This document shows positions 1,638 to 16,500 of a stretch of 21,710 bases of DNA, one piece after another. The stretch spans positions 1 through 21,710 of the IMG/VR virus record IMGVR_UViG_3300010211_000003; one strand, 5' to 3'. The translations under genes were made by a program, and so were the position numbers. The notes beneath the pieces were generated by a model. It worked only from the letters and a program-made list of their open reading frames with translations. It made no database searches and was not told where the DNA came from. The DNA is from a virus. How positions within the stretch are numbered: the stretch's first letter is position 1; every line of letters starts with the position of its first letter.

Positions 1638-2159
1638 TTACCCGCGCGGCGGGCCGGTCAGGGACGGGCCCGACCGGACGGCGGTGTGTTGGTGATCGTC
1701 GCCGATGTCGCGGCCGTTGTGGGTCACGCCGGCGCCGGTGATGACCACGCGACCGTCGATCTCGATGGTCTCGGCCTGCAAGTGGATCGTGGTCGGGCCG
1801 GTTACGCGCAAGGTTCGCGTGGTGCGGTGGTAGGAGACGGCGGTGCCGTCCTCCCACCGGATCAGGTCCAGGTCGGGGTCGCTCGACGGCGCCGGCAGGG
1901 CGTCCGAGTACAGGATCTGGGTGATGAGGGCGTTGGCGATGTCGCCGCCGGGGGCGGCCAGCATCACCTGTTGTCCGGGGCGCAGGGGCCGCCAGCGGAT
2001 GTAGTTGCGGCCGAGGTCGGCGGGCCACCGGAGCCAGTCGGTCAGGCGGCCGTTGACGTCCACCCGCACCCGGGCGCGCGCGTGGTCCACCTCGGCAATG
2101 GTGCCGAGGCAGGAGAGGTTCGCCACGCGGCGATGCAGGTCTGCGGTGGGCTGGTCCAT
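1638..2159 (-). CDS. V: Baseplate spike protein V (P2 gpV)
   Basis: A 173-residue protein starting MDQPTADLHRRVANLSCLGTIAEVDHARARVRV. The N-terminal OB-fold pattern (GTIAEVD...RVRVDVNGRLTDWLRWP) matches gpV of P2, the trimeric membrane-piercing spike. The C-terminal HQH followed by SGPSLTGPPRG resembles the metal-binding tip (HxH) and GP-rich end of these spikes. It is the first gene of the V-W-J-I group. It starts 43 bases after a perfect palindrome at 2203-2228, the position where P2 has its late promoter PV. No strong Shine-Dalgarno sequence is visible before the ATG. Confidence 0.93.
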   Translation of the reverse strand: MDQPTADLHRRVANLSCLGTIAEVDHARARVRVDVNGRLTDWLRWPADLGRNYIRWRPLRPGQQVMLAAPGGDIANALITQILYSDALPAPSSDPDLDLIRWEDGTAVSYHRTTRTLRVTGPTTIHLQAETIEIDGRVVITGAGVTHNGRDIGDDHQHTAVRSGPSLTGPPRG

Positions 2160-2202
2160 GGCCGCAGCATGGGCAGACCGCCGCCCGGACGCGACGGCGC
2201 GC

Positions 2203-2228
2203 GGGTTGGATAGGGGTCTATCCAACCC
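2203..2228. promoter_or_regulatory. Palindromic late-control site, copy 1 (before gpV)
   Basis: Two perfect 11-bp arms, GGGTTGGATAG and its reverse complement, flank the spacer GGGT. An identical 26-bp sequence lies at 7929-7954 and a one-mismatch version at 16475-16500. It ends on the first base of the gpS stop codon and lies 43 bases before the gpV ATG, where P2 has the late promoter PV. No T-run follows on either strand, which argues against a terminator. The role as activator-binding site is inferred from position and repetition. Confidence 0.6.
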
Positions 2229-2692
2229 TATGCCCGCGTGCTGCCGCCGGACAGGTGCTCCAGCAGGCGGGCCCGCACGGCGGCGATGTCGTCGGCCGAC
2301 CAGCCCAGCAGGGGCCGGGCGGGATACTCGGCCTCGATACCGTCCGTGACCGTGTCCCGGCGGCCGAAGTGGTGGACGGCGGCGATGCGGGCGGCTTGCC
2401 CTCTCCAACCGATCTCCTGGTCGTCGGCCGTCTCGGTGATGCGGAGGCGGCGGGCCTGACGCAGCTTGACCATCATCTTGGCCTTGCGGCGGACGGCCCC
2501 ATGGCGGGTCCGTTGCGGCTTGCGCGGCGCCCAGGGGGTGCCGTCGGGGGCGACCTGACGGGTCATACGCGCCTGGTTGCGCTTCCGAACCGCGCGGGCA
2601 ATGTCCCGCAACACTGCGTGCACCCGGTCGTGGTCGAGGGCGCGCAAGGCCTCCATCATCCAGGCGTCGAGGCGGGCCGCGTCGTCAGGCAT
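2228..2692 (-). CDS. S: Tail completion / virion morphogenesis protein (P2 gpS)
   Basis: A 154-residue protein of the phage virion morphogenesis family. It shows the basic stretch RDIARAVRKRNQARMTRQVAPDGTPWAPRKPQ, the conserved DG-PW-PRK pattern of gpS, and ends with HHFGRRDTV...YPARPLLGWSADD, which matches the family's PaR-LLG motif. In P2, gpR and gpS complete the tail tube so that it can join the head. The start overlaps the gpR stop by eight bases. The TAG stop begins at the last base of the upstream palindrome of gpV. Confidence 0.93.
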   Translation of the reverse strand: MPDDAARLDAWMMEALRALDHDRVHAVLRDIARAVRKRNQARMTRQVAPDGTPWAPRKPQRTRHGAVRRKAKMMVKLRQARRLRITETADDQEIGWRGQAARIAAVHHFGRRDTVTDGIEAEYPARPLLGWSADDIAAVRARLLEHLSGGSTRA

Positions 2693-3122
2693 CTAACGGA
2701 CCTTGGGGCATGTCCGGGAACAGGGCGCCCATGTCGATGGCCAGGGCGTCGGGATCGGCGACCGTGGTCAGGGTGACGCCGCCGGCGCCGTCCGTGGCCG
2801 TCACGGTCTCGGTCAGGGGCAAGCGGAGCGAAACGTCCACGCGGCGATGATCGATGACGTCCACGTGGAAGGCCACGGCGTCCGGCTTGGCCGCCGGTTC
2901 CTCGCGGTGCAGCCAGCCGAGCACCAGGAACAGCAACGCGCGCGGATCGCCGCGGAAGTCGGTGACGATCAGGTGGGCGTCGTAGGCCACGGAGAAGGTG
3001 CGGTTGCGATCCCCGCGCCAGGCGGTGACGTGACCTTGTTCGGCAAAGGTCAACAGGTGCTCCGGCGACAGCCGAAGGTCGGACGCCAGCAGGGCGGCGC
3101 GGACGGCGGCAAGCTTCTGCAT
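2685..3122 (-). CDS. R: Tail completion protein R (P2 gpR)
   Basis: A 145-residue protein starting MQKLAAVRAALLASDLRLSPEHLLTFAEQG. The pattern of an N-terminal helix, a LxxFAExG motif and then AYDAHLIVTDFRGDPRALLFLVLGWL is typical of P2 gpR, which pairs with gpS in completing the tail. It lies between the spanin genes and gpS, as in P2, and overlaps gpS by eight bases. Length is close to that of P2 gpR. Confidence 0.92.
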   Translation of the reverse strand: MQKLAAVRAALLASDLRLSPEHLLTFAEQGHVTAWRGDRNRTFSVAYDAHLIVTDFRGDPRALLFLVLGWLHREEPAAKPDAVAFHVDVIDHRRVDVSLRLPLTETVTATDGAGGVTLTTVADPDALAIDMGALFPDMPQGPLDA

Positions 3123-3131
3123 GGGATTAGA

Positions 3132-3389
3132 TTACTCCGTTCCCTCGGCGCACGCCCGCGCCTGGGCGCGCATCACCGCATAGTCGGACAACATCCGCGC
3201 CACGGCGGCGTCGGCCGGCAAGGTCTCCAGCTCATCGGCGGCGCGATCCAGGATAGCTTGGTCGTAGGGCACCACGGGCGGGCAGACCACGGCGGGAGCC
3301 TCAGAACCGGCCGTCGCGCAGGCGGTCAACAAGGGCATCGCGATCACCAGGGCGATCGCGCGCGGCGTCCAACATGCGGGATTGCACAT
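3132..3389 (-). CDS. Rz1-like outer-membrane spanin lipoprotein
   Basis: An 85-residue protein with a hydrophobic signal segment IALVIAMPLLTACATAG that ends in a lipobox (LLTAC), so Cys is the likely lipidated residue. After it comes APAVVCPPVVPYDQAILDRAADEL, the short Pro-rich region typical of o-spanins. With the overlapping upstream gene it would form the spanin complex that fuses inner and outer membranes in the last step of lysis. It overlaps the Rz-like gene by 89 bases in a different frame, the classical overlapped Rz/Rz1 layout, and stops ten bases before gpR. Confidence 0.82.
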   Translation of the reverse strand: MCNPACWTPRAIALVIAMPLLTACATAGSEAPAVVCPPVVPYDQAILDRAADELETLPADAAVARMLSDYAVMRAQARACAEGTE

Positions 3390-3528
3390 CGGCCAGGGTC
3401 TCCAGAGAGTCAGCGCGGGCTTGGGCCCGACCGCTTCGGCGCGCCTGCCACAGGGCGATCAGGGCGGCGCCGGCGGCCAGGGCGATCCGCCCCAACCAGC
3501 CGGCCAACGACATCACCCACCCAGGCAT
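3301..3528 (-). CDS. Rz-like inner-membrane spanin (LysB type)
   Basis: A 75-residue protein with an N-terminal membrane anchor (WLGRIALAAGAALIALWQA) followed by a polar, probably coiled-coil stretch rich in Arg, Ala and Asp (ARADSLETLADVQSRMLDAARDR). This is the make-up of an i-spanin. The ATG at 3528 overlaps the endolysin stop as TGATG; a GTG directly before it would add one residue. It is short for Rz, but its position between endolysin and Rz1 and the frame-shifted overlap with the lipoprotein gene support the call. Confidence 0.75.
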   Translation of the reverse strand: MPGWVMSLAGWLGRIALAAGAALIALWQARRSGRAQARADSLETLADVQSRMLDAARDRPGDRDALVDRLRDGRF

Positions 3529-4229
3529 CACGCCCGCTCCAGGCGATGCTTGCGCGCCAACATCAAGACGATGGCCACCACGGCCAGCAGCGCCAGCACG
3601 CTCCCCACCCAGGGCGCCGTGTCCACCAGGGTCCGAACGGCCGGAGTGGTGGCCGCGTCCAACACCGCATCGGCGTTGTCGGCGGCCACGGTCAGGGCGG
3701 TTCCGGCGGCGGCCGCGATCCCGGCCGCGCCGGTCTTGCCCGTGCTGGTCTTGCGAAGTGGGCGCGGCACCAGCTTGGGAGACGTGACCATCAATACCGG
3801 CGGTTCAATCCCGGCCAGGGCAAGCCCCTTGTCAATCATGGCGTCGGAGTAAGGTTGCCGGCCGTTCTCATGGCGAATGATGGCTTCGACCAGGACGCGC
3901 GCGACGGCGTAGGTGTGGACGTCGACCGCCGTGTCGGCGGCCACCCCCAAGCGATCGGCCACCGCGCGAACATAGGCGTCGGTGTCGTTCTCGGCGGCCG
4001 GCGCCCAGCGGCCGATCATGCCGCGCACGCTGCGAATGTCGTGCTTGTCCTGGTAGGTGATCAGGATCCGGGCGATGGCGCGGATGCCCCATTCCGGCGC
4101 CCGGAACACGCAGAACCGGGTTTCGGCGCGCTGCGCCGGGGTCATCTCGTTGGGATCGGCGAGGCCCTGCCAAGGCTGGCCGCGTTCGATGTTGCCGGGG
4201 TTGTGGTTGCGGATGCCACGGGCGGACAT
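3528..4229 (-). CDS. Putative endolysin with C-terminal membrane anchor
   Basis: A 233-residue protein starting MSARGIRNHNPGNIERG. The RGIRN-NPGNI opening, EWGIRAIARILITYQDKHD and the later GRWAPAAENDTDAYV motif define a phage family usually annotated as structural protein P5 or lysozyme-like; a peptidoglycan-degrading role is inferred from family and position. Residues about 203-225 (GSVLALLAVVAIVLMLA) form one strong transmembrane segment near the C-terminus, after an Ala-rich linker, so the enzyme may stay in the inner membrane until holin triggering. The start was chosen for its perfect AAGGAGG seven bases upstream, two bases after the holin stop. Confidence 0.75.
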   Translation of the reverse strand: MSARGIRNHNPGNIERGQPWQGLADPNEMTPAQRAETRFCVFRAPEWGIRAIARILITYQDKHDIRSVRGMIGRWAPAAENDTDAYVRAVADRLGVAADTAVDVHTYAVARVLVEAIIRHENGRQPYSDAMIDKGLALAGIEPPVLMVTSPKLVPRPLRKTSTGKTGAAGIAAAAGTALTVAADNADAVLDAATTPAVRTLVDTAPWVGSVLALLAVVAIVLMLARKHRLERA

Positions 4230-4231
4230 GG

Positions 4232-4414
4232 TCAATCCTCCTTTTGCGTAACGGATCGGAGACGGGCCAGCCACACGCGCAGTTGCACCCAGGCGAGCAC
4301 AATCGCGAGCAGCAGGGACAGGGTGGCGAGGCCGTCGTTCAGGACGCCGATCCAGGTGGACAGACCGGCGGCGGCCGACCCGCCGATGGCCAGGACGTCT
4401 TTCGTCCGCTCCAA
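4232..4414 (-). CDS. Putative small holin (TTG start)
   Basis: A 60-residue protein read from a TTG at 4414, eight bases after AAGGAGG and in frame with the TGA at 4232. Two hydrophobic stretches, VLAIGGSAAAGLSTWIGVL and LATLSLLLAIVLAWVQL, are followed by a basic and charged tail (RLRSVTQKED), consistent with a two-transmembrane holin. Reading from further upstream would add a Pro/Gly-rich stretch that is the gpX region in another frame, so it was rejected. It lies between gpX and the endolysin, where P2 has its holin gene Y. Function is inferred from topology and position. Confidence 0.72.
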   Translation of the reverse strand: MERTKDVLAIGGSAAAGLSTWIGVLNDGLATLSLLLAIVLAWVQLRVWLARLRSVTQKED

Positions 4415-4428
4415 GACGAGGGCCTCCT

Positions 4429-4638
4429 TCACCACAGGGTGGTTTGCGGGGTTGGGATCGGCGTTTCCCGGGGCGGGAGGATCACCAGGGTTCCCTGGGG
4501 CAGCACCCGGCCTTGGCGGGCAAGACCCGGATTGGCTTCCCACAGGCGATCGGTCATGTCGGAGCCGCCGTAAACCCGGTGGGCGATGGCATCCAGGGTG
4601 TCCCCCTGACGGGCGCGGGCGGTGCCGGTGCCGGACAT
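4429..4638 (-). CDS. X: Tail protein X (LysM-like)
   Basis: A 69-residue protein with the pattern ARQGDTLDAIAHRVYG...DRLWEANPGLARQGRVLPQGTLVILPP, a LysM-like fold typical of tail protein X (P2 gpX). The size equals that of P2 gpX. The ATG has a good Shine-Dalgarno sequence (CGGAGGA) and lies 26 bases after gpL. The gene stops with TGA just before the AAGGAGG that serves the holin, so the two are probably translated in sequence. Confidence 0.93.
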   Translation of the reverse strand: MSGTGTARARQGDTLDAIAHRVYGGSDMTDRLWEANPGLARQGRVLPQGTLVILPPRETPIPTPQTTLW

Positions 4639-4664
4639 GGCGGTTCCTCCGGGGTGGCGTTCCC

Positions 4665-5144
4665 CTAGATCAGTTCGACGACGGTGCGCGGCCGGCCCAT
4701 CAGGCGGGACAGGGCCTCGTGCCCGCGCGTCAGCCAGTCGTCGGCGGTGGCCTCCAGGGCGTCGGCGCGGTCGTGGCCCGACTTAGTGGAATCGAAGTCC
4801 CGGGTGGCCAGGATCACGGCGGCGCGCACCCGGCAATCCAGGGCCGCCTGCCAGCGCAACACCGCGATCGGGGTGCCGGTGAGAGCGTCCGCCGGGGTCA
4901 CCGCCGCGAGAGACGCGGCCCCCTCGGCCTCCCGGGCGGCGCGCCAATCGGCCAGCACGCCGGCGATGGCGTCGGCGGCCTCGCGCACCATGGGGATCAA
5001 CAGGGCGTCGTCCCAGGTGCCGTCATCCAGCCGGGTTCGCCGTCGCAGGGCGGTGAGGTCGACCTCGGGATACCAGCCGTCGGCGCAGACGGGCACCGGC
5101 ACCGGATCGGTGGGCGCGGGAGAGGTGGCGATAAAACCGGACAT
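4665..5144 (-). CDS. L: Head completion/stabilisation protein (P2 gpL)
   Basis: A 159-residue protein of the phage head completion family. Diagnostic are DGWYPEVDLTALRRRTRLDDGTWDDALLIPMVREAADAI, where the family shows fwP-id...r...R-dgtvt...l...l..A...vn, and the end RDFDSTKSGHDRADALEATADDWLTRGHEALSRLMGRPR, which matches the conserved R-yDtT-sG..ra-...w.R....ai..l.g. In P2, gpL fills the head after packaging. A GGAGG precedes the ATG. Confidence 0.93.
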   Translation of the reverse strand: MSGFIATSPAPTDPVPVPVCADGWYPEVDLTALRRRTRLDDGTWDDALLIPMVREAADAIAGVLADWRAAREAEGAASLAAVTPADALTGTPIAVLRWQAALDCRVRAAVILATRDFDSTKSGHDRADALEATADDWLTRGHEALSRLMGRPRTVVELI

Positions 5145-5164
5145 GGGGGATCCTCCGGGGGGCC

Positions 5165-5827
5165 TCAGGGCGCGTCGTCATCTGGGGGCGGGCTGGCCTC
5201 GGCGCGTGTCTTGCGCAGGCGGTCGAGGGCCTTTTTCACCCCCACGCCCCGGTCGAGGGCGTAGGCGCGCTCCAATCGCTCCAGGGCCAAGGCGGGATCC
5301 GTGCCTTCGACGGCCAAGCCCAACACCTTGAGGGCCTTGGCGCGTACCGGGTCGTGCATGTCGCGGCCCTGGGTCAGGCGCAAGGCGCTGTCCAGGGCGG
5401 GCAGTGCGGTCGGATCGACTTCGCCGGCGCGGGACAGTTCCTCCACCAGCCAGGTTGCGGCGTCGCGGTCGAAGCCGTCCGGCATGGCCAGGTCGTGCCC
5501 GACCACATAGGCCGCCAGGCGCAAGGCGCCGTCCCAGTCCCCCACGTCGACGGACCAGATCATCATCATGACCACCACCGGGTCCTGACGGCCGCTGTCG
5601 GCGGCGAGAACCTCGTCCACATAGGGGCGGTAGTCGGGCAACAGGGCGCGCTTCATCTCAGCGCGCGTCTCCAGGGACTTCACGGCGCGGAGTTGATCCA
5701 GGTGGCCCTTCAGGCCGCGCAGCATGCGGGTGAGGCCGGGCGCGGTGTCCGGGCCGGCCGTTTGCGTCGGGGTGGCGGCGTCGGCCCGGGCCAGGGCGGC
5801 GGCGCGCGCGCGTTGCGCCGGCGTCAT
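5165..5827 (-). CDS. M: Terminase small subunit (P2 gpM)
   Basis: A 220-residue protein beginning MTPAQRARAAALARADA, the usual gpM opening (spaqrh...), with the conserved FDRDAATWLVEELSRAG segment and a C-terminal helical part LERAYALDRGVGVKKALDRLRKT. Terminase small subunits recognise the packaging site and, with gpP, cut and package DNA. The ATG overlaps the gpN stop as TGATG. P2 gpM is slightly longer. Extending the frame upstream would run into gpN coding sequence. Confidence 0.92.
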   Translation of the reverse strand: MTPAQRARAAALARADAATPTQTAGPDTAPGLTRMLRGLKGHLDQLRAVKSLETRAEMKRALLPDYRPYVDEVLAADSGRQDPVVVMMMIWSVDVGDWDGALRLAAYVVGHDLAMPDGFDRDAATWLVEELSRAGEVDPTALPALDSALRLTQGRDMHDPVRAKALKVLGLAVEGTDPALALERLERAYALDRGVGVKKALDRLRKTRAEASPPPDDDAP

Positions 5828-6837
5828 CACGTCCACCCGCCCTGACCGTCGGGCTGCAGGATGCCCTCGATCAGGCAACAGGCGCCGGTGTCCTCGATCA
5901 CGTAGCACTCGTTGACCGACTGGAAGTCGACGATGCGATCCCAGGCCGGTTGATCTTCGACGCGGCGGCGCCGGGTGCCGGTCTGCCAGTAGATGGACAG
6001 GTTTTTGGGGTTGCCGATGAACAGGGTCGAAGCCGGGAAGAACGGCACCACCTGGGCCTTCTTGCCGCCGATTTGACGGCCGACCATCAGGGTCCGCAGC
6101 GCGACCGCTTCCGTGGGCGTGCCCACGTTATCCTCGATCAGGTCCAGATAGCGTTCGGTCAGCAGGTTGCGGCCGACGATACAGACGATCTCGGCGTCGT
6201 CCTTGTACCAGTCGTCGAGGTAGGTGTTGACGGCGTCGAAGACCAAGCCATCCAGGGTTTTGTAGTCTCCGCCGTTGCCGACCTTGGGACCGGTGTAGAC
6301 GCGGGCCGGGTCGGCGGTGCGCAGGTGCTGCAGCCAGCCGATGTTGACGTCCTGCAGCAAGGGGTTCGCCACCAGATCCGTGGTGGCCGCCGCCGTGGTG
6401 CCGTTCCAGCCGATCATCAGGCGGTCGCGGGCGATCTGTTCGGTGACCTTGCCCCGCACCCGGGTTTGGAAGTCCGGGAACTTGGCCCAGGCGTCCAGGG
6501 TGTCGTAGCGGATGAAGCTGTCGAAGTTGGTCTGGCGGGTCAGGTAGTCCCGCTTGCCCAGGCCGTGGATGTCGCGGGGCTGACGCGGGGTGGTGGTGGT
6601 GTCGGTGCGGCTGGCGATGGGGCTGGTGGTGCCCAGGCCCAGTGCCTGGCCCGAGGGCTGAGAGACGCCCATGACGTTGACGCGCTTGAGGAAGTCGGCG
6701 GATTGCTGGATGCGGTTTTCGAGCCGCTGTTCGACGGTCGGATCCACGGCGAACTGCTGGGTGGCGTCCGGTACCCCGTTGAGCCGCGCGAGGTCCGCGC
6801 AGTAGGTGTTGAAGACGACGCGGGTATCGTTGCGCAT
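5827..6837 (-). CDS. N: Major capsid protein precursor (P2 gpN)
   Basis: A 336-residue P2-family capsid protein. It has the typical N-terminus TRVVFNTYCADLARLNGV, where family members show ...f..y...va..ngv, then RVNVMGVSQPSGQALGLGTTSPIASRTDTT, DWYKDDAEIVCIVGRNLLTERY and the C-terminal IVDFQSVNECYVIEDTGACCLIEGI. gpN is assembled with the scaffold/protease gpO and cleaved near its N-terminus during maturation. It lies two bases downstream of gpO. Confidence 0.96.
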   Translation of the reverse strand: MRNDTRVVFNTYCADLARLNGVPDATQQFAVDPTVEQRLENRIQQSADFLKRVNVMGVSQPSGQALGLGTTSPIASRTDTTTTPRQPRDIHGLGKRDYLTRQTNFDSFIRYDTLDAWAKFPDFQTRVRGKVTEQIARDRLMIGWNGTTAAATTDLVANPLLQDVNIGWLQHLRTADPARVYTGPKVGNGGDYKTLDGLVFDAVNTYLDDWYKDDAEIVCIVGRNLLTERYLDLIEDNVGTPTEAVALRTLMVGRQIGGKKAQVVPFFPASTLFIGNPKNLSIYWQTGTRRRRVEDQPAWDRIVDFQSVNECYVIEDTGACCLIEGILQPDGQGGWT

Positions 6838-6839
6838 GC

Positions 6840-7703
6840 CTAGCAGTCCGTCTTGAGGGGGGTGGTCGAGGTGCCGCCGGCGGACAGCGGCCGGCCGGCG
6901 GTGGCGGGGGTGCTCGATAGCACCTGAAGGAGCTGATCGAAGCGGCCGGTCAGGGCGGCCAAGCCGTCGTTGGTGGGGGTGGAAAGCGGAGCGGCGGGCG
7001 CTGGCCGTGACGATGCGGGGGACGCGCCCGCCGCCGTCGCCGGCGGCTGCGAGGGGGGATCGGCAGCCGGGGCCGGCGATGGGGAAAGGCGGCTGAAGGC
7101 GGTGGCGAACTCGACCAAGGCGGTTTCGATGCCGGACAGGCGGGCCTCGGTCTTGCGGCTTTCGCCGCTGAGAAGCTGACGGACCCGGTCCACCAGCCCG
7201 GCGGTGCCGTCACCGGTGGACAGCTCCGCCAGCGGCGCGGCCTCCAGGGGTTCGGAGAACAGGTGGTCGCGCACCTCCGCCGGCATGGTGCCGGCGCGGG
7301 CGCTGAGGCGAATGTACTCGGTGCCCAGGCTGGCCGGGCGGTCGGTGACGGCCAGGCCCATCAGGTAGGGCTTGCCGGCCGGCGGCATGGCCGGATGCAC
7401 CTCCGCCGACCAGTAGACCTTGTCGCGGTTGCGGGCCAGTTGGATCAGTTCCGGCTTGGCGTCGACCTGGGCATAGAGGGCGCGGGTGCCGTCGGTCTCG
7501 GTGCGGGCCTCGACCGCCACCACATCGCCCAGGGCGGCCAGCGGCGAGCCGGGCATGATGGACGACAGATGTTCGACGTTGATCCGGGCGCCGTACAGCA
7601 TCGGGTCATAGTTGGCGGCCATGGCGTCGATCTGCTCGGGGGTGACCTCCCGGCCATCGACGGTCTTGCCGGAGCGGCAGATTCGGAACCACTTGGTGCG
7701 CAC
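6840..7703 (-). CDS. O: Capsid scaffolding protease (P2 gpO)
   Basis: A 287-residue protein read from a GTG at 7703 that is preceded by GGAGAGAG. It starts VRTKWFRICRSGKTVDGREV and aligns with P2 gpO. Asp16, His45 (INVEHLSS) and Ser99 (VYWSAEV) occupy the positions of the P2 catalytic residues Asp19, His48 and Ser107, followed by the family signature LMGLAVTDRPASLGTEY. The C-terminal third is rich in Ala, Pro and Ser and has helical segments fit for scaffolding. Longer in-frame starts upstream give low-complexity Arg-rich sequence without family similarity, so the GTG was preferred. Confidence 0.93.
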   Translation of the reverse strand: MRTKWFRICRSGKTVDGREVTPEQIDAMAANYDPMLYGARINVEHLSSIMPGSPLAALGDVVAVEARTETDGTRALYAQVDAKPELIQLARNRDKVYWSAEVHPAMPPAGKPYLMGLAVTDRPASLGTEYIRLSARAGTMPAEVRDHLFSEPLEAAPLAELSTGDGTAGLVDRVRQLLSGESRKTEARLSGIETALVEFATAFSRLSPSPAPAADPPSQPPATAAGASPASSRPAPAAPLSTPTNDGLAALTGRFDQLLQVLSSTPATAGRPLSAGGTSTTPLKTDC

Positions 7704-7928
7704 GCGCTCTCTCCGTTCGATCTTGGACAGGTCCGGTCGGCCATGGGGCGACCGGCCGGCGCGACTGCGCCGGCGCCGCCCCGGCGCCCACAGGGCGTCA
7801 ATTCTGTGAAACAGCGCCCTAAGGGCGCTGAGGGCGGCGGAGCCGCGTGAAGCCCAAGGGGCTGAGCTGCGGCGATCAAAAACAAAAAGGAGGGTGCGCG
7901 TTGCCAACGGCCGGGGACCAGACCGCGA
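7704..7928. other. O-P divergent intergenic region with 8-bp inverted repeat
   Basis: No convincing gene is seen here. An inverted repeat, CAGCGCCC-TAA-GGGCGCTG, lies at 7812-7830 within the presumed leader of gpO. A stretch CAAAAAGGAGGG at about 7888-7899 looks like a ribosome binding site but opens only onto a 12-codon frame. The region leads into the palindrome at 7929 and should hold the divergent late promoters that P2 calls PO and PP. No clear sigma70 -10 or -35 boxes are visible. Confidence 0.4.
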
Positions 7929-7954
7929 GGGTTGGATAGGGGTCTATCCAACCC
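7929..7954. promoter_or_regulatory. Palindromic late-control site, copy 2 (between gpO and gpP)
   Basis: This is identical over all 26 bases to the copy at 2203-2228: arm GGGTTGGATAG, spacer GGGT, then the reverse-complement arm. It stands between the leftward head genes and the rightward P-Q pair. Its right edge is 43 bases from the gpP ATG, the same distance as copy 1 has from the gpV ATG. Being symmetric, it could serve both directions. Confidence 0.6.
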
Positions 7955-7997
7955 GAGAGAGGGTGCGCGACGGCGCCGGGCGCGGCCCCATGGCGGC

Positions 7998-9800
7998 ATG
8001 ATCGACCCGCCCGATACCTCCTGGCCCCGACCGCCCCGGCGTGAGGACGCGCGCGCCCTGTACTGGCAGGGCTATGCCGTCGCCGAGATCGCCCGGCGGC
8101 TGGGGATGAAGTACGCCACGGTGGATAGCTGGAAGCGGCGCGGCCGCTGGGACGAGGCCCCGCGCGCGGCCCGGATCGAGGACGCGGCCGAACGGCGCCT
8201 GGCGATCCTGATCGCCAAGCCGGACAAGACCGACCGCGACCTGAGCGAGATCGACCACCTGGGGCGCCTGATCGAACGCACGGCCCGGGTGCAAAAGTAC
8301 GACGATACGGGCCGCGAGAGCGACCTGAACCCCAAGGTTCACAACCGGGCCGAAGGCCGCGCCAAGGCAAAACAGAAGAAGAACACCCTGAGCGAGGACC
8401 AGGTCGACGCCCTGCGGGCCGACTTCTTCAAACGCTTCTGGCGCTACCAACTGCGCTGGTACGAGGCCAAGGCCAGGCACCGCCGGCGGCTGATCATCAA
8501 GTCGCGCCAGATCGGCGCCACCTATTACTTCGCCCTTGAAGCGGCGTTGGACGCCATCGAGACCGGCGACAACCAGATCTTCCTCTCCGCCTCCAAGTCC
8601 CAGGCACACGTCTTCAAGTCCTACATTGTCCGGTGGGTGTACGACGTCACCGGCGCGGAGTTGCAGGGCACCCCCATCAAGCTGTGGAACGGGGCCGAAC
8701 TGTACTTCCTGGGCACCAACAGCCGCACCGCGCAGAGCTACCACGGGCATGTTTACCTGGACGAGTTCGCCTGGATCGGCCGCTTCGCCGAGTTCAAGAA
8801 GGTCGCCGGCGCCATGGCGACCCATAAGACATGGCGCACCACCTACTTCTCGACCCCCAGCACCATCGGCCACGAAGCGGCGGCCTTCTGGGACGGCCGC
8901 GAGTTCAACCGCGACCAGCCGCGTGGGGAGCAGGCCGAGTTCCTGACCTCCCATGAGGCGCTGAAAGACGGCTTGGTCGGGCCGGACGGCACCTGGCGGC
9001 AGATGGTCACGGTCGACGATGCCATCGCCCAGGGCTGCGACCTGTTCGACCTGGAGGACGAACGCCGCAAGTACAACGAACGGGACTTCGCCAACCTGTT
9101 CCTGTGCCAATGGGTGGACGACGCGGCGTCGTTCTTTACCTTCGCCGAGCTGCAGAAGTGCGGCGTGGACACCTGGGACGCCTGGCCGGACGTGCCGCCC
9201 TTGGAGGACCCGGGCACCGGGAACCGGCATAACTTGGGGCCCGTGTGGATCGGCTACGACCCCTCGCGGTCGCGCGACGATGCCTCCGTGGCGGTGATCG
9301 CGCCGCCGGCGGCCGAGGGCGGCGCCTATCGGGTGGTGGAGCGCCAGACCTTCAACGGCGTGGACTTCCAGGCCCAGGCCGAGGCCATCCGCCGCCTGAC
9401 CGAGCGCTACCAGGTGGAACGCATCGCCGTGGACGTCTCCGGCATCGGTCAGGGCGTGTTCGAGATGGTGCAAGGCTTCTGGCCGGCGGCCGTGGCCATC
9501 ACCTACAGCGTCGAGACCAAGGCCCGCATGGTCCTGAAGGCCAAGCACCTCATCAGCCGCCGCCGCGTCGAATGGGACGCCAGCCAGACCGACATTCCGC
9601 TCGCCTTCCTGGCCATCCGCCAGACCATGACGCCCACCGGGCGCCAGATGACCTTCCAGGCCAGCCGATCCGACACCACCGGGCACGCCGACGTGGCCTG
9701 GGCGATCATGCACTCCCTGGATCGCGTCGCGTTCCGCGACTTCGACCAGCCCGAGGGCGGCCATGCGGCCAGCCGGCGCGGTTTTATGGAGATCTTTTGA
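7998..9800 (+). CDS. P: Terminase large subunit (P2 gpP)
   Basis: A 600-residue packaging ATPase/nuclease. An N-terminal helix-turn-helix (ALYWQGYAVAEIARRLGMKYATVDSWKRR, residues about 20-48) is typical of P2 gpP. The ATPase domain shows IIKSRQIGATYYFALEA (about 166-182) in the Walker A position and VYLDEFAW (252-259) as Walker B. The nuclease domain begins near 416 with VWIGYDPSRSRDDASVAV, with Asp421 as a probable metal ligand. The ATG at 7998 gives the family length; an in-frame TTG at 7932 lies inside the palindrome and was rejected. The stop overlaps the gpQ start (TGATG). Confidence 0.96.
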   Translation: MIDPPDTSWPRPPRREDARALYWQGYAVAEIARRLGMKYATVDSWKRRGRWDEAPRAARIEDAAERRLAILIAKPDKTDRDLSEIDHLGRLIERTARVQKYDDTGRESDLNPKVHNRAEGRAKAKQKKNTLSEDQVDALRADFFKRFWRYQLRWYEAKARHRRRLIIKSRQIGATYYFALEAALDAIETGDNQIFLSASKSQAHVFKSYIVRWVYDVTGAELQGTPIKLWNGAELYFLGTNSRTAQSYHGHVYLDEFAWIGRFAEFKKVAGAMATHKTWRTTYFSTPSTIGHEAAAFWDGREFNRDQPRGEQAEFLTSHEALKDGLVGPDGTWRQMVTVDDAIAQGCDLFDLEDERRKYNERDFANLFLCQWVDDAASFFTFAELQKCGVDTWDAWPDVPPLEDPGTGNRHNLGPVWIGYDPSRSRDDASVAVIAPPAAEGGAYRVVERQTFNGVDFQAQAEAIRRLTERYQVERIAVDVSGIGQGVFEMVQGFWPAAVAITYSVETKARMVLKAKHLISRRRVEWDASQTDIPLAFLAIRQTMTPTGRQMTFQASRSDTTGHADVAWAIMHSLDRVAFRDFDQPEGGHAASRRGFMEIF

Positions 9801-10792
9801 TGAACGAGACCGGTCCCAAGACCACGCCCGCCGAACCCCGCGTGGAATGCTTCACCTTCGGCGATCCCGAGCCGGTGTTGGATCAGCGCGAGATCCTGGG
9901 CTACTTCGAAAGTGCGTGGAACGGGTCGTATTACGAGCCGCCCTTGTCCTTCGACGGCCTGGTGCGCGCCCTGCGGTCCAACCCACACCACGAAAGCGCC
10001 GTCGGCCTGAAGGTGCAGATGCTGTCCAGCCTGTACCGGCCGACACCCTTGCTGTCGCGCCGGGACATGACTCGCATCCTGCAAGATCGCATCGTGTTGG
10101 GGAACGCCTGGATCCAGCGGGTGGACAACGTGCTGGGCCAGCCCTTGCGGCTCAAGCCCACCCTGGGGCGCTTCACCCGGGTCCGCCGCGACGGTCGGGT
10201 GTTGATGCTGATCGACGGCCGCGAGGTCGATCTGGAGGGCGAGGTCCTGCAGATTGCCCAGCCCGACGCCAGCCAGGAGATCTACGGCCGCCCCTCTTAC
10301 GAGGGGTGCCTGCAGAGCGCCCTGTTGAACGAGGCCGCGACCCTGTTCCGCCGCAAATACTACGTCAACGGCTCCCACGCCGGGTTCATCCTCTACATGA
10401 CCGACGCGGCCCAAGATCAGCGCGACGTCGACGCCATGCGCCAAGCCTTGAAGGACAGCAAGGGGCCGGGGAACTTCCGCAACCTGTTCATGTTCGCGCC
10501 CAACGGCAAGCCGGACGGCCTCAAGGTGATCCCCATCGCCGAGGTCGCGGCCAAGGATAACTTCATGGACATGAAGACCGTGACGCGCGACGACGTCCTC
10601 GCCGCGCACCGCGTGCCGCCCCACCTGCTGGGCATCGTGCCCCAGAACGCCGGAGGGTTCGGCGACGTCTCCAAGGCCGCCCCCGTGTTCTGGTATCTGG
10701 AACTCCGCCCCCTCGCCATGGAGATCGAATCTGCCATCAACGCATGGATGGGGGAGGACGTGGTGGGGTTCGATGCGTTCAAACCAATCTAA
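9800..10792 (+). CDS. Q: Portal protein (P2 gpQ)
   Basis: A 330-residue portal of the PBSX/P2 gpQ type. It contains FTFGDPEPVLDQREILGYFES near the N-terminus, YYEPPLSFDGLVRALRSNPHHESAV, GRPSYEGCLQSALLNEAATLFRRKYYVNGSHAGFILYMTD, and the C-terminal VAAKDNFMDMKTVTRDDVLAAHRVPPHLLGI, all hallmark motifs. Twelve portal subunits form the DNA entry vertex. It is translationally coupled to gpP through the TGATG overlap. The sequence turns AT-rich shortly after its stop, marking the start of cargo genes. Confidence 0.96.
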   Translation: MNETGPKTTPAEPRVECFTFGDPEPVLDQREILGYFESAWNGSYYEPPLSFDGLVRALRSNPHHESAVGLKVQMLSSLYRPTPLLSRRDMTRILQDRIVLGNAWIQRVDNVLGQPLRLKPTLGRFTRVRRDGRVLMLIDGREVDLEGEVLQIAQPDASQEIYGRPSYEGCLQSALLNEAATLFRRKYYVNGSHAGFILYMTDAAQDQRDVDAMRQALKDSKGPGNFRNLFMFAPNGKPDGLKVIPIAEVAAKDNFMDMKTVTRDDVLAAHRVPPHLLGIVPQNAGGFGDVSKAAPVFWYLELRPLAMEIESAINAWMGEDVVGFDAFKPI

Positions 10793-10970: not shown

Positions 10971-11921
10971 ATGGACACGTACTTGGAAATTGCGCAGAAG
11001 GTGCTTCGGGCAGCCCGCCGTCCAATGACGGCTGAAGCAATACTTAATGCGGCGTATCGCGCAAAAATCGTTCCCCATCACCTTTATGGAAAAACACAAC
11101 ACAAAACACTGCAAGCGCGCCTAAGTGAATACATTCTGGAAAATAACATAGATGGTGTGTTTTATAGGACAGACCCAGGATATTTCTTCCTATCCGAATT
11201 CATGTCAGACCAGTCAATACCGAATAAGTATAAGGACCCTTTTTACGCGCGAAGACGAGTGCGAGACATTCCAAATTCGATGACATTGTCCTTTGATTCG
11301 GGATTTGTTGAAAATTATTTGGAAAGAGAAAGCCGTGACTGGCAAACTCTCATCGCTGCAGCATCTTCTGCGGGGGCAATTCGCTACGTCCACCCAAAAG
11401 AAGTATCAGAACGAGACGCTTTAGTCTGGTCATTTTCCGTAGTAAAAAAGGGAGATATGATTCTTAGCTATCGCATTGGAAAGTATAGAGACCAAACGAA
11501 AGTTTTTAAAAACAAAAGAACGGTTGGTTTTGCTGATCGGGTTTCTTATTGTGATCGAACCCTATTTTCAGGCTCGGATATGGGTATTGTTGACCGTGGA
11601 CAAAAAACCATATTTTCTGATCTAGGTATATCTAAGGGTGCATTTTATGGCAGTCGCGACATTGAGTCGCCGTCGATATCGTTTGTATTCTCAAGCAAGA
11701 ACGAGCGCATAGCGCAAAATGTATTGTTTGTTACGGAATGGAATTGCCCGAATTGGTTCGAGCCAACAATCCGGCGCTTATCTTTGAATGATATTCAATG
11801 GCTAGATGGCAAAAGATGCCCAAATGATCTGGAGCACTTTGATCCTTGGTCAGTAAAATACTTCAGCTTCACTCTGCAGCAACTTCAAGTATTTAGTGAT
11901 GAGGTGGGGTGTCTACGATAG
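10971..11921 (+). CDS. HARE-HTH domain protein with unassigned C-terminal domain (putative defence gene)
   Basis: A 316-residue protein. Residues about 3-74 (YLEIAQKVLRAARRPMTAEAILN...KTLQARLSEYILEN...FYRTDPGYFFL) match the HARE-HTH winged-helix domain found in restriction and chromatin proteins. The remainder, about 130-300, has LVWSFSVVKKGDMILSYRIG and KNKRTVGFADRVSYCDRTLF, which faintly recalls the NUDIX-like fold seen in conflict systems, but the NUDIX box is absent and the assignment is uncertain. An in-frame stop at 10950 limits the start; the ATG follows a weak CAGGG. Base composition is much more AT-rich than the prophage. The CHAT gene begins 75 bases downstream in the same direction, suggesting an operon. 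Confidence 0.8.
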   Translation: MDTYLEIAQKVLRAARRPMTAEAILNAAYRAKIVPHHLYGKTQHKTLQARLSEYILENNIDGVFYRTDPGYFFLSEFMSDQSIPNKYKDPFYARRRVRDIPNSMTLSFDSGFVENYLERESRDWQTLIAAASSAGAIRYVHPKEVSERDALVWSFSVVKKGDMILSYRIGKYRDQTKVFKNKRTVGFADRVSYCDRTLFSGSDMGIVDRGQKTIFSDLGISKGAFYGSRDIESPSISFVFSSKNERIAQNVLFVTEWNCPNWFEPTIRRLSLNDIQWLDGKRCPNDLEHFDPWSVKYFSFTLQQLQVFSDEVGCLR

Positions 11922-11996
11922 ATATTAAGGGCATCCCAAGAAAGTGTCAAAAAAATAGACGCATAGATAATGTTAATTTATGTGGAGGGCGTTTTT

Positions 11997-13706
11997 TTGA
12001 AGTTAATTGGAAAAGAAAGAGCAGCATTTATAAAATTTGAAATCGAAAATGGGGATTCTTCTCGCGCTAAAAAAGCCCTTCAAGAACTATCTTTTTTATA
12101 TAGAAAAGGGCATGCCCTCTCCGGAAGCGATCTGCATTCTTTCCAAATTGCCATCAATGGAATCATTTTAAAACAGGGTCAAGATATTAAAGTTGTCAGA
12201 TGGGGCCTAAATGCGCTCGCAAGATTTGGCTCAATTTGCGTTTGTGGTGATTATGTCAACGCCGCACTTAGAAAGTTTGAAGGAATCCCGGAAATTCAAG
12301 CGTCTGGTGTTGCGTGTCTTGTCAAGATGCATCGAGGCATTACCGATAGGATCGGAATTTTAAATAATATAGAGCCCAAAATCTGGAAACTTGCTGCCTT
12401 ACAGGTGACGGAGCCAAAATATTTAGATTTTGAAGGACTTCGGATAAATATTGATAACGAGGGAATTGACGTTTTAAAATTGGCGCTTATTACTGTTGGC
12501 CTAAATCGTTGCTTTGAAAATCTATTTGATCCTAAATACAGAAACGGAGAAATTGTAAGGCATTTGTGTTTGCATGATGATGTTATTGTTCAGCAATATA
12601 GCGTATGGGCTATTATTGAGAACAAGAGTTTGAGTATAGATCACCTTGGTATCGACGTTGAGAAAATAGACGACTTAGCGGAAAACGTTCAAGCTAAAGC
12701 ATACCAGTTAATTGCAGAATCTGACCCTGATTTACATCGCCGTCTGCGCATAACAAGTGACTGTTCCGTATACGGTGGTGCCGAAGCGCGAGAAGGATTA
12801 GCTCGCGGAGTTCTCTCCAACTACTATGATGGACTTCAAGACATCACTATAAGCTGGTTCGACCAGGAGTCGAATCACTCTGTTAGAGAAATATTGGCGC
12901 AGCACTTTGCGAAAAACGCTTTTCATTGTCCAGTATATTGGAGTAAATCTGAGGAAATATATGATCAATTCGAAGAGTTTCGTAAAATTATTTTAGTGGG
13001 TTCTGAGGGGACCAATCTTTATTCGACATTAAAAGGAAAGCAGACTGCAGATTTATTTACAGATTACACACCTCGCGGTGACTTAGTTTCTACTCTTTCA
13101 CAAAGCAGTCTTCTGGAGGGAAAGATGACAAAGAAGGTTCTTTTTATGGCGGTTTCTCCATTAAACGAAGAGCCGCTTCGATTAGATCAAGAATATAGAG
13201 ATGTAAAAGATCACATAAACCGCCTAAATAATAAAGCGGTAAATATAGAAATTATTTATGAGACAGCTGTTAGGTTGGATGATATACAAACTCATTTACT
13301 TAATTCAAATCCAGATATATTACACTTCTCCGGTCACGGGGACCAAGGGGCCCTGATTTTTGAAAAATTGGATGGTACAGCCGGCGTGGTGCGCGGCGAC
13401 ATCATAGCGGAATATATTAAGATGCTTCCCTCTATAAGGTGCGTTGTGTTGAACGCTTGCTATTCCGAGACTATAGTCGAATCTATTGCCTCGAATATTG
13501 ACGCTGTTATAGGTTGCGAAGGGCCTATCGCAGACGAAGCTAGTGTGGTTTTCTCAAAATCATTCTATCAGGCTCTTAGTTCTGGGCGCTCTTACGAAGA
13601 TTCATTTAATTTTGGCGTCATTGGGGTTCGCAATCAAGTCACTGATGAAGAGGCGCTGAAATATAAATTGGTGTCTGGAAATACAGGGTTTCCCAGGCTT
13701 GGGTAA
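11997..13706 (+). CDS. Helical-repeat protein with C-terminal CHAT (caspase-like) protease domain
   Basis: The C-terminal 190 residues are a CHAT protease. KKVLFMAVSPLNEEPLRLDQEYRDV opens the domain, HFSGHGDQGAL holds the catalytic His447 and VVLNACYSE the catalytic Cys488. About 380 preceding residues look like HEAT-type helical repeats, a likely sensor or partner-binding part. I chose a TTG start at 11997 because GGAGGG lies seven bases upstream; an in-frame ATG at 11970 has no ribosome site and would give 578 residues. An internal GGAGGG-AAAG-ATG at 13115-13127 could yield the protease domain alone. Codon use is AT-rich, unlike the phage. In defence systems CHAT proteins act as effectors that cleave cellular or partner proteins; that role is inferred here. 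Confidence 0.85.
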   Translation: MKLIGKERAAFIKFEIENGDSSRAKKALQELSFLYRKGHALSGSDLHSFQIAINGIILKQGQDIKVVRWGLNALARFGSICVCGDYVNAALRKFEGIPEIQASGVACLVKMHRGITDRIGILNNIEPKIWKLAALQVTEPKYLDFEGLRINIDNEGIDVLKLALITVGLNRCFENLFDPKYRNGEIVRHLCLHDDVIVQQYSVWAIIENKSLSIDHLGIDVEKIDDLAENVQAKAYQLIAESDPDLHRRLRITSDCSVYGGAEAREGLARGVLSNYYDGLQDITISWFDQESNHSVREILAQHFAKNAFHCPVYWSKSEEIYDQFEEFRKIILVGSEGTNLYSTLKGKQTADLFTDYTPRGDLVSTLSQSSLLEGKMTKKVLFMAVSPLNEEPLRLDQEYRDVKDHINRLNNKAVNIEIIYETAVRLDDIQTHLLNSNPDILHFSGHGDQGALIFEKLDGTAGVVRGDIIAEYIKMLPSIRCVVLNACYSETIVESIASNIDAVIGCEGPIADEASVVFSKSFYQALSSGRSYEDSFNFGVIGVRNQVTDEEALKYKLVSGNTGFPRLG

Positions 13707-13881: not shown

Positions 13882-14247
13882 TTAAGGTGTCCAAAAAAGA
13901 ATCAGTCTGAAGTGGTTGACGATCGCCGCATTGCTGACCGACGTCCATCCAGAGATCAAAAACACCGTTCGCCGGGCCCCGGCGCCGCCGATGGAATAGG
14001 CTACGTCCAGGGTCTTGATGTCGGCTCCGGTCTCGGACAAGGACCGGTTCTCGGGGCAGTCTTTGTAGCTCAATACCCACCGGCCCTGAGGCCGCAGGGT
14101 GTCGGCCAGCCGGGCGTGGTCGTTGTGGCCGAAGATCCTGGGACCATAGCGCCTCTCATAGACGTGATAGGGCGGGTCCAGATAGACTAGGGCATCCGGC
14201 CAGTCATGCCGGCGCAGGGGCTCGTTCCACGGCAGGCACTCGATCAC
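13882..14247 (-). pseudogene. DNA adenine methylase (Dam-like), N-terminal half missing
   Basis: From a GTG at 14247 the frame gives 121 residues containing DALVYLDPPYHVYERRYGP, where DPPY is the catalytic motif of N6-adenine methylases, then HARLADTLRPQGRWVLSYKDCPENRSL and a C-terminus like that of Dam enzymes. The AdoMet-binding motif and about 150-180 N-terminal residues of a normal Dam protein are absent; upstream in this frame only the formyltransferase gene in another register is found. It overlaps that gene by 44 bases. It is probably the 3' remnant of a dam gene, though a small expressed product cannot be excluded. Confidence 0.6.
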
Positions 14248-14845
14248 GGTGGCCCGCCGACGCCGGCGGTTCCAGGGTGCCCAGGGGGCGACCGAGGTTG
14301 GGTTGGGGCGTCTCGGGTAGCGTCTCGGCCTCTGCGAGCCGCGCCACACAAGCCACCAACAGCCGCCGGCCAATAGGCGCCAAGTCCCGGCGCCACAGGC
14401 TGGCCGGGGTGTCGTCGGCCCGGACAAAACACCAGTCCTGAGCCAGTATAGGGCCGGTGTCGTAGCCGTCATCCATGCGGTAGACCGTGCCGCCGGTGAC
14501 CGGGTCGCCGTTGCGGAGGGTCGAACACACCGCGTCCCGGCCCCGATGCAGCGGCAACAGGCTGGGGTGGTAGCCGATCACCCCATAACGCGCCGCCGCG
14601 CGCGCCTCGGCCGGCAGGAAGACATGACAGTGCGCGGCCACGGCCAAGTCACACGGTGGTATCGCGGCTCCTTCTAGACGACGGCCGGGGCCGTGCAGGC
14701 TCAAGGGCAGGCCCAGGGAGCGGGCGGCGACCGCCAAACGGTCTTCCGCGTTGGGCGCGATGATGTGCAGATCATGCCCCGCCCCCGCCAGATCGGCGGC
14801 GACGGCGGCGGCCAGCCACTTCTGGCCGATCACGACGATCCTCAT
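14204..14845 (-). CDS. Formyltransferase-fold protein of a putative DNA-modification operon
   Basis: A 213-residue protein with the formyltransferase fold of methionyl-tRNA and GAR formyltransferases. It has an N-terminal MRIVVIGQKWLAAAVA, the loop YHPSLLPLHRGRDAV (His93), TGGTVYRMDDGYDTGPIL (Asp129) and no C-terminal tRNA-binding domain. The usual catalytic Asn two residues before His is Gly91 here. The ATG overlaps the stop of the ABC/GNAT gene (ATGA), showing translational coupling. It cannot be the housekeeping fmt gene given its size and context. Transfer of a formyl group to a modified base or to a precursor is an inference. The last 15-20 residues may come from a recombination joint with the dam remnant. 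Confidence 0.8.
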   Translation of the reverse strand: MRIVVIGQKWLAAAVAADLAGAGHDLHIIAPNAEDRLAVAARSLGLPLSLHGPGRRLEGAAIPPCDLAVAAHCHVFLPAEARAAARYGVIGYHPSLLPLHRGRDAVCSTLRNGDPVTGGTVYRMDDGYDTGPILAQDWCFVRADDTPASLWRRDLAPIGRRLLVACVARLAEAETLPETPQPNLGRPLGTLEPPASAGHRDRVPAVERAPAPA

Positions 14846-15954
14846 GATGCCCCCAGATACCGGAAACCCTGAACGGCACGCAGGTGCCCGCCGTAGCCGG
14901 TTCCATGGCCCGACTTGCCAAGGCTCGCAGCCGATCGCCCCTTGTTGGCACCGGTCAGGGTCGCGGAGACTTGCGTCCAGCCGGGATGCTTGCGCAGGGC
15001 GGCGGCAAGGCCGGGGTGGGAGGTGTGGAACAGGGTCCGCAAGGGACGGCGGAAGGGATTGTCCCCCTCCGCCCAGGCGGCGCAGATGGTATTCAGGAAG
15101 GCCATGCCGACCCCGATACCCTGCCACTCCGGCATGACCACCAACCGGCAGGCCCGGGCCTCCACGACACCGGGCTGGGTCGTAACGCCCAGGTGCGCGA
15201 CCGGGGCGCCGTCCACGGTGCCGACGTAGCACCGGGCGGCGATCATGTTCGGCAGCTTCAGATAATGATGCGGCTCGAAAAGCGGCCAGTTGGCCCAGCC
15301 GGTTTCCACGATCTCAAGGGGGAGCGGCGGTCGCCGTCGGCCCCTCCCCACGGTCACCGCGCCGGTGGCCGTGTCACAGCTCCAATCCGGATCCAACCAA
15401 TCCAGGATGTCCTCGTGCGGGGTCAACAGGATCAGGCGGTCCTCGGGCACCGACCGGCGCCACGCCTTGGCGAAGGCGGCGGCGCCCACCCGGGCGATCT
15501 GACGGTCGAGGACGCTGGTGAACTCGTCCACGATCACCGGGCGGTCGGGCCGCGACAGGACAAGGCGCGCCATGTCGGCCCGGAAGCGTTCGCCGTTCGA
15601 CAACACATCATAAGGCCGCAGCCAGGCCGGGACGGAGCCCAGCCCGACAGCGGTCAGGACCTGGGTCACGCGATCAAACGGAAGGTCCGGCCCCAGGGCC
15701 TCGATCAGCGGCGTTCCGGCCGGCCACTCAGGCGCCCAGAAGGCGGCGCCGATCCGGTCGACCAGGGCGCGGCCCAAGGAGGTCTTGCCGGACCCGGACG
15801 GGCCGTGGATGACGCCGATCCCGGTCCAGGTGTCCGGCAGATCGACCGCGAGGGAGAAGCCCTCGGCCTCGCCCTCGCAGTTGAACAGGGACCGCACGCG
15901 GGCCGCGCGATAGCCCGTGCCGGCGGTCGGCCCCTTTTGAACGGTGATCCTCAT
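14842..15954 (-). CDS. ABC-type ATPase fused to GNAT acyltransferase (Mom-like modification enzyme)
   Basis: A 370-residue two-domain protein of the type grouped in COG2401. The ABC ATPase part (about 1-205) has Walker A GPSGSGKT (51-58), a signature-like LSNGE (118-122), Walker B VIVDE (140-144) with SVLD D-loop, and H-loop His180. No transmembrane segment is present, so it is not a transporter. The second part (about 215-335) has EPHHYLKLPN and the GNAT motif A LVVMPEWQGIGVGMAFLN (271-288), resembling the GNAT fold of phage Mu Mom, which adds an acyl-derived group to adenine. It overlaps both neighbours as ATGA. Its position downstream of a Com-like gene supports a DNA-modification role. 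Confidence 0.8.
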   Translation of the reverse strand: MRITVQKGPTAGTGYRAARVRSLFNCEGEAEGFSLAVDLPDTWTGIGVIHGPSGSGKTSLGRALVDRIGAAFWAPEWPAGTPLIEALGPDLPFDRVTQVLTAVGLGSVPAWLRPYDVLSNGERFRADMARLVLSRPDRPVIVDEFTSVLDRQIARVGAAAFAKAWRRSVPEDRLILLTPHEDILDWLDPDWSCDTATGAVTVGRGRRRPPLPLEIVETGWANWPLFEPHHYLKLPNMIAARCYVGTVDGAPVAHLGVTTQPGVVEARACRLVVMPEWQGIGVGMAFLNTICAAWAEGDNPFRRPLRTLFHTSHPGLAAALRKHPGWTQVSATLTGANKGRSAASLGKSGHGTGYGGHLRAVQGFRYLGAS

Positions 15955-16100
15955 ACCGCCACCACCCGGAGCCGCAGCCCCATGGCCTGCAGGGTCTCGT
16001 AGGTGGTGCGCTGGTGATCTTCGTCATCGCAGACGACGATCACCGCCCATTGCGGCCGATACTTGAAGCCGTTTCGGCCCGGCGGTGGCTTTGGCGCCAT
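15951..16100 (-). CDS. 49-residue protein between Com-like and ABC/GNAT genes
   Basis: From the ATG at 16100 the frame encodes MAPKPPPGRNGFKYRPQWAV followed by IVVCDDEDHQRTTYETLQAMGLRLRVVAV, a compact alternating strand-helix-strand pattern (VIVVC, a central helix, LRLRVVAV). The TGA overlaps the ABC/GNAT start as ATGA. The first 77 bases overlap the 3' end of the com-like gene in another frame, recalling the overlap of com and mom in phage Mu. A GGGAG lies nine bases upstream. I have no family name for it; its place in the operon and protein-like pattern argue that it is real. Confidence 0.65.
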   Translation of the reverse strand: MAPKPPPGRNGFKYRPQWAVIVVCDDEDHQRTTYETLQAMGLRLRVVAV

Positions 16101-16290
16101 CGAGCGTTTCTCCCGTGACCGGCGCTCTGTGGCGCTCGGGTGAGGGGCTCAAGGCAGATGGAGTCGGGGCCCTCCGGACAGTGATTTCCCCGCAGCGGGG
16201 GCATTTGATGCTGACTTGGCCGGCCTTTAGGTCTTGGATTTCAGCCAGTTTTCTACAGCAAGCGTGGCAGCGGATTGACTCCGGGCGCAT
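16024..16290 (-). CDS. com: Mu Com-like zinc-finger translational regulator
   Basis: An 88-residue protein starting MRPESIRCHACCRKLAEIQD. Cys8-x2-Cys11 and Cys30-x2-Cys33 (IKCPRCGEIT) form the zinc finger of the Com family. Com of phage Mu binds the com-mom mRNA and opens the mom ribosome site. Here the 3' end overlaps the next small gene by 77 bases, so the same control is plausible. The start was chosen for AGGGGA upstream and because the family begins just before the first Cys. The C-terminal 50 residues are low-complexity. A late-type palindrome lies 184 bases upstream. Confidence 0.8.
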   Translation of the reverse strand: MRPESIRCHACCRKLAEIQDLKAGQVSIKCPRCGEITVRRAPTPSALSPSPERHRAPVTGETLDGAKATAGPKRLQVSAAMGGDRRLR

Positions 16291-16474
16291 GGTGCTTCCC
16301 CTTTCGTCGCCTCGCGCGTGCGTGCGAGGGCGGGCCGTGTTCATGGCGGCCGACATGGACGTGGGGGAGTTCGTAGGGCTCCCGGCTTGGGGCGTTGGCG
16401 CGCCCCGGCCCCCGCCGCACGGGCGAGGACAGCGCCCACAATGCCTTGGCAACGTCGAAAGCAGGCGAACCATT
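16291..16474. other. Leader between palindrome and com-like gene
   Basis: This stretch holds no convincing separate gene. An in-frame ATG at 16359 would extend Com by 23 residues without a good ribosome site. It probably is the untranslated leader of the modification operon if transcription starts near the palindrome. Confidence 0.35.
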
Positions 16475-16500
16475 GAGTTGGATAGGGACCTATCCAACCC
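16475..16500. promoter_or_regulatory. Palindromic late-control site, copy 3 (upstream of com operon)
   Basis: Arms GAGTTGGATAG and CTATCCAACCC flank the spacer GGAC. Compared with copies 1 and 2 there is one arm mismatch and a different spacer. It is the only such element near the leftward modification operon and lies upstream of its first gene, suggesting that this operon is expressed with the late genes. Confidence 0.5.

Follow-up and report, generated by a model that had tools for sequence, protein, structure and literature searches.

Palindromes at the late promoter positions of a P2-like phage as probable operators of an Ogr-type activator with changed specificity

The late genes of phage P2 depend on the activator Ogr, whose kin are 186 B and P4 delta. 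Such Ogr/Delta-dependent late promoters of P2 have as operator a dyad whose centre lies some 55 bp before the transcript start; they contain a -10 element and do not need a sigma70 -35. In the P2 record, a single activator site at 3057-3087 is annotated for the divergent pO and pP, whose transcript starts are 3127 and 3016, and the pV activator site (10239-10266) goes with a transcript start at 10308, the A of the gpV ATG. Counted from the centre of a 22-bp frame, the V start and ATG are base 57 and the P start is base 56. The annotated sites read GTTGTGTCAGTGATAAGCCATC (O/P), GTTGTCTGGTAGTTCTACAAAT (V) and GTTGTGCTGTCGATTAGCCAAC (F); they are imperfect themselves, and the right arms of PF and PO/PP read CCA. 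The literature found gives Ogr sites as TGT-N12-ACA, the published consensus, accompanied by the zinc motif CX2CX22CX4C (available part of PMC3931495), or as TGT-N13-ACA in Ralstonia phages. The same part of PMC3931495 describes TGT-N12-ACA-like sites and a CX2CX22CX4C protein in the Stenotrophomonas phage Smp131, while the Ralstonia phages phiRSA1 and phiRSY1 carry TGTTGT-N13-ACAACA ahead of four late operons (PMC5694545).

The DNA analyzed here (hereafter, the window) comprises the 21,710 nucleotides of the viral record IMGVR_UViG_3300010211_000003. A 26-bp palindrome, GGGTTGGATAGGGGTCTATCCAACCC, is found at 2203-2228 and 7929-7954, with 26 of 26 bases identical between the copies, which can be read as arm GGGTTGGATAG, spacer GGGT and arm CTATCCAACCC, the arms having 11 bp. 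There are 43 bases between the first copy and the gpV ATG (A at 2159, minus strand) and 43 between the second and the gpP ATG (A at 7998, plus strand). Coordinates and sequence thus confirm the original prediction, which had described two identical palindromes 43 bases from both start codons, but it missed a third copy at 16477-16498. This one, GTTGGATAGGGACCTATCCAAC, reads GTTGGATAG-GGAC-CTATCCAAC, so that the 9-bp core arms are identical and the spacer differs. Allowing up to 3 mismatches, the pattern TTGGATAG-N4-CTATCCAA has 3 matches in the window against 0.01 expected from shuffled windows, and since the best remaining 22-mer fits just 12 of 18 arm bases, the window contains exactly three copies. 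The features around the first two are:

1638..2159, minus strand: gpV, baseplate spike (Pfam Phage_base_V); its ATG is base 57 from the operator centre
2166..2171, minus strand: -10-like CATGCT of gpV, bases 45-50 from the centre of operator 1
2203..2228, minus strand: putative operator 1, 11-bp arms, spacer GGGT/ACCC, predicted to drive gpV leftwards; same site in 10 other phages
2228..2692, minus strand: gpS, tail completion (Phage_tail_S), upstream neighbour of the V operator
6840..7709, minus strand: gpO, capsid scaffold/protease (Phage_GPO)
7891..7896, minus strand: -10-like CACCCT of gpO, bases 46-51 from the centre of operator 2
7929..7954, no strand assigned: putative operator 2, common to the divergent gpP (rightward) and gpO (leftward)
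7988..7994, plus strand: weak -10-like CCATGGC of gpP, conserved as GGCGCGGCCCCAT in relatives
7998..9800, plus strand: gpP, terminase (Terminase_5/6); its ATG is base 57 from the operator centre

Both the position and the geometry of these sites are those of P2 late operators. They lie before V and between the divergent O and P, with a single site for the latter two, in the same 22-bp GTT-N16-AAC frame, and their centre is as far from the gpV ATG as in P2, where this puts it about 56 nt from the annotated transcript start. The ATGs of gpV and gpP are at base 57 from the centre in the window and at base 57-59 in nearly all relatives, that of gpV being at the distance where the annotated V transcript start of P2 coincides with the ATG. 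Candidate -10 elements, YANNCT-like, are found at bases 44-51 in most sites and in both directions, comparable to TAGCCT in P2 P. At the place of the gpV element the relatives carry CATCGT, CATGAT or CATCCT, and at that of gpO they show CACCCT, CACGCT, CACCTT or CAGCCT; the match of gpP (CATGGC) is weak and lies about 3 bases further out than the V position. The letters of the window site are different. It reads TGG-N12-CCA within GTTG-N14-CAAC, keeping the spacing and the outer GTT/AAC of the published consensus but departing from strict TGT-N12-ACA, with the inner half-site GGATAG instead of the TGT-class letters of P2 and with perfect symmetry where that of P2 is imperfect. The sites of phiRSA1/phiRSY1 are likewise symmetric, of Ogr type, with GTT/AAC outer letters and placed ahead of late operons, although they belong to the TGT class and are one base wider than the N12 of the window, which is of the TGG class. 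Smp131 shares the P2-like gene order and the operator positions, but has TGT/ACA-like letters, according to the available part of its description.

We suggest that, very probably, the palindromes of the window are where a late-gene activator of the phage itself docks, a protein related to P2 Ogr. In the form that we consider best supported, and hold with high though not full confidence, a zinc-finger activator of the Ogr/Delta type, encoded by the phage, would use them as operators, its specificity having moved from TGT-N12-ACA to GTTGGATAG-N4-CTATCCAAC. As P2's own sites are imperfect versions of TGT-N12-ACA, two of them with CCA right arms, the non-TGT letters do not bar Ogr. The departure from the strict consensus nevertheless counts against this reading, as do the lack of an Ogr in the window, the displaced gpP -10-like element, the com -10-like element, which is not conserved in relatives, and the missing operator before the F genes of the relatives. 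Because the strict consensus is absent and the activator of this phage is not seen in the window, we class the sites as a variant expected to work like P2 late operators. The activator would bind symmetrically, with its centre about 56 bp before the transcript start, and would recruit the host RNA polymerase to promoters having only a -10 element. Four late transcripts would then depend on three operators: V on one, the divergent P and O on a shared one, and com/mom on the third. The mRNAs of gpV and gpP are predicted to be leaderless, since the gpV ATG sits at the distance of the P2 V start and the gpP ATG at the same distance.

The original prediction had placed late-promoter operators at the PV and PO/PP positions, which finds support in the place and spacing shared with P2, and had proposed that a different late activator and operator may be used, on the grounds that the site is not TGT-N12-ACA. 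A non-Ogr activator with an unrelated palindrome would agree with the length and perfection of the palindromes, in contrast to the degenerate sites of P2, with their letters, which do not read TGT-N12-ACA, and with the lack of any Ogr in the window, whose contig runs out at gpI on its left side, before the ogr region is reached. However, we regard it as improbable. The GTT-N16-AAC frame, the distance from centre to start and the shared O/P site are all those of P2, and two of P2's own right arms read CCA. Furthermore, intermediate classes of sites exist among the relatives (TGG, TGC, TGA, TAG, TAT and TGT), and the closest of these relatives encode Ogr/Delta zinc fingers.

Proteins over the cut-off for PF04606 (Ogr_Delta) were found in Roseospira marina (two), Roseospira visakhapatnamensis and Rhodospira trueperi, those of R. 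marina and R. trueperi being rechecked, and they retain the four-cysteine motif. In R. trueperi the gene is located about 3 kb downstream of a gpD relative, on a contig with H, FI, FII, E, T, U and D; this corresponds to the position of ogr in P2. Returning to the Ogr-type reading, we infer that the phage of the window has its own Ogr, encoded off the contig, which binds the palindromes.

Relatives of gpP were gathered from viral contigs and from genomes, with few additions from the latter, as 4 of 385 further alphaproteobacterial genomes contain one. Upstream of gpP, R. marina and R. visakhapatnamensis have GTTGGAATG-N4-CATTCCAAC, R. trueperi has GTTGGAACG-N4-CGTTCCAAC and the relative L007 has GTTGCGCGT-N4-ACGCGCAAC. 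At the same place we found GTTGGCG... in L010 and L011, GTTATTTA in L013, GTTAGAACT in a Kordiimonas, and GTTAGTTAC/GTTAGAAAC and GTTGGGAAG in Rhodospirillales MAGs. Novispirillum has GTTGAAA in a site of 21 bp, and a Sphingomonadales MAG has GTTGTAGA in one of 23 bp, with the wider spacing of phiRSA1/phiRSY1. P2-like Yersinia prophages show GTTGTGACGGGGCTGGCACAAC in the same 22-bp frame, and betaproteobacterial-looking relatives have weak or TGTA-type sites. Palindromes occupy both places, before V and before P, in Roseospira, Rhodospira, Novispirillum, Kordiimonas and other alphaproteobacterial P2-like prophages. In 11 phages the second copy is readable before gpV, 5.5 to 9 kb from the gpP copy.

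In these 11 phages, picked by eye for near-perfect site symmetry (a selection, though one that does not itself force V to equal P), the V and P half-sites have an identity of 0.97 at bases 4-7 within a phage and of 0.41 between phages, and when the V sites were permuted among phages none of 20,000 permutations reached the observed matching. The outer three bases, GTT (AAC), are identical in all half-sites compared. When V/P pairs were sought automatically at a lenient threshold of at least 13 of 16 arm bases, 18 of 177 control regions matched as well, about 10% false positives, and the statistic was therefore restricted to the near-perfectly symmetric pairs. What is new here is that the inner half-site varies between phages and yet is the same at V and P of one phage. 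Only the GTT...AAC and the geometry are constant in these alphaproteobacterial phages, the inner letters changing in step within each phage. This matching points to what one symmetric, trans-acting DNA-binding protein encoded by each phage would produce, and operators and activators appear to have changed specificity together.

An RNA hairpin before gpV and gpP (terminator, attenuator or mRNA stabiliser) would also accommodate compensatory changes between phages, and with its 11-bp arms and loop of 4 bases it would be able to fold. However, there is no T-run after either copy, site 2 lies between divergent genes, and a stem explains neither why both sites of each phage share their letters while other phages share different ones, nor why the ATG lies at a fixed distance, which makes this possibility very unlikely. 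Equally hard to credit are repressor operators, of phage or host, silencing the late genes in the lysogen, which a symmetric site near a promoter would suit, given that the centre, with about 56 bp between it and the start codon and about 45 bp between it and the -10, is too distant for a direct block of RNA polymerase, that P2 has an activator at that place, and that three whole genomes have no copies elsewhere.

This last result also indicates that the sites are not a host regulon. Exact copies in those genomes number 4 in R. marina, 3 in R. trueperi and 2 in R. visakhapatnamensis, all on prophage contigs. The pattern GGTTGGA-N10-TCCAACC occurs in 73 Rhodospira-family genomes at these nine places only, all of them on prophage contigs of three genomes, which excludes, for the relatives, the dispersed chromosomal repeat that the original prediction named as its refuting case. 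The expectation of a further copy before the F-region tail genes did not hold in Rhodospira and Roseospira. The searches of R. marina (L198, where V to FI is contiguous) and R. trueperi (L195) gave no operator ahead of FI, and therefore the F genes of both may be read through from V. Unlike P2, these relatives have no copy before the F genes and carry an extra one before com. In IMG/VR, a scan for the exact pattern returned four matches, none in a GTTGG...CCAAC context, which were taken as chance.

The third copy of the window has the following features around it:

14842..15954, minus strand: P-loop ATPase, Mom-like candidate (AAA_22 above the cut-off; C-terminal GNAT weak, Acetyltransf_7 below the cut-off)
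16024..16293, minus strand: Com-like zinc ribbon protein (Zn_ribbon_Com, 23.1 bits, cut-off 22.9)
16438..16443, minus strand: -10-like CATTGT of com, bases 45-50 from the centre of operator 3
16477..16498, minus strand: putative operator 3, same arms, spacer GGAC, preceding the com/mom-like operon

From 13882 to 16293 on the minus strand, one operon contains the Com-like zinc ribbon, the ATPase with the weak GNAT match, a formyltransferase and a match to D12-type adenine methyltransferases, and we consider it a candidate Mom-like DNA-modification cassette. The centre of operator 3 is 194 nt upstream of the Com-like gene. R. trueperi and R. marina have at least the first three genes of the cassette in common with the window, and Rhodospira and Roseospira each have an operator of their own, which lies 197-198 nt ahead of com; the CATTGT of com shows no conservation in relatives. 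In phage Mu, the function of Com in com-mom and the action of the late activator C at the mom promoter are described in the available parts of PMC6483171 and PMC4461284, respectively. By analogy, operator 3 would place the com/mom-like operon under the late activator, as C does in Mu, and a DNA-modification operon would have been drawn into the late regulon. The window resembles Mu in having a com-like gene at the head of a DNA-modification operon that would be controlled as a late operon; it differs in that its putative late operator belongs to the Ogr type and in the fusion of the Mom-like candidate to an ATPase. The available part of the Smp131 report does not mention a third site ahead of a modification operon.

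It is conceivable, although we would put it below an even chance, that the Ogr family has a readable recognition code, in which a fixed GTT/AAC anchor is kept and the inner bases are rewritten together with a few zinc-finger residues, giving each lineage a private password for its late genes. The rewritten bases would be, again tentatively, G/A at position 4, G/T/C/A at position 5 and then two to four more. After the second cysteine, Ogrs of the TGT class have R-[TS]-S, whereas those of the TGG, TGA, TAG and TAT classes have K-[TSV], which makes these residues a candidate code position, the correlation of K versus R being confounded by ancestry and a lead only. No solved relative of the Ogr zinc finger was detectable by sequence. 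If the code is true, selection could have favoured insulation against prophages resident in the same cell or against satellites that exploit the late promoters of their helper. These phages offer natural operator-activator pairs for learning how a small bacterial zinc finger reads DNA, and with the pattern they provide, late promoters outside enterobacteria can be searched for more effectively.

Some other observations concern the gene content of these prophages. Between gpQ and the com operon, the window encodes a HARE-HTH protein (315 aa) and a CHAT-domain protein (578 aa) at 10974-13703 on the plus strand, cargo genes possibly involved in phage defence. At the same place, R. trueperi (L097, 12095-16444, plus strand) has an unrelated-looking protein of 1449 aa, possibly also for defence, and this interval is a cargo hot spot. 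Beyond an integrase fragment, a pentapeptide-repeat protein (468 aa) is found at 18429-19835 on the plus strand of the window. A second P2-like prophage of R. marina, in L199 (contig 38), differs from that of L198 at 2046-2940 of L199, where the sequence between an internal point of gpV and the tail-fibre region has been lost; the two prophages are 92-94% identical on either side. In L199 the N-terminus of gpV is fused to sequence of the tail-fibre region, and the operator was kept.
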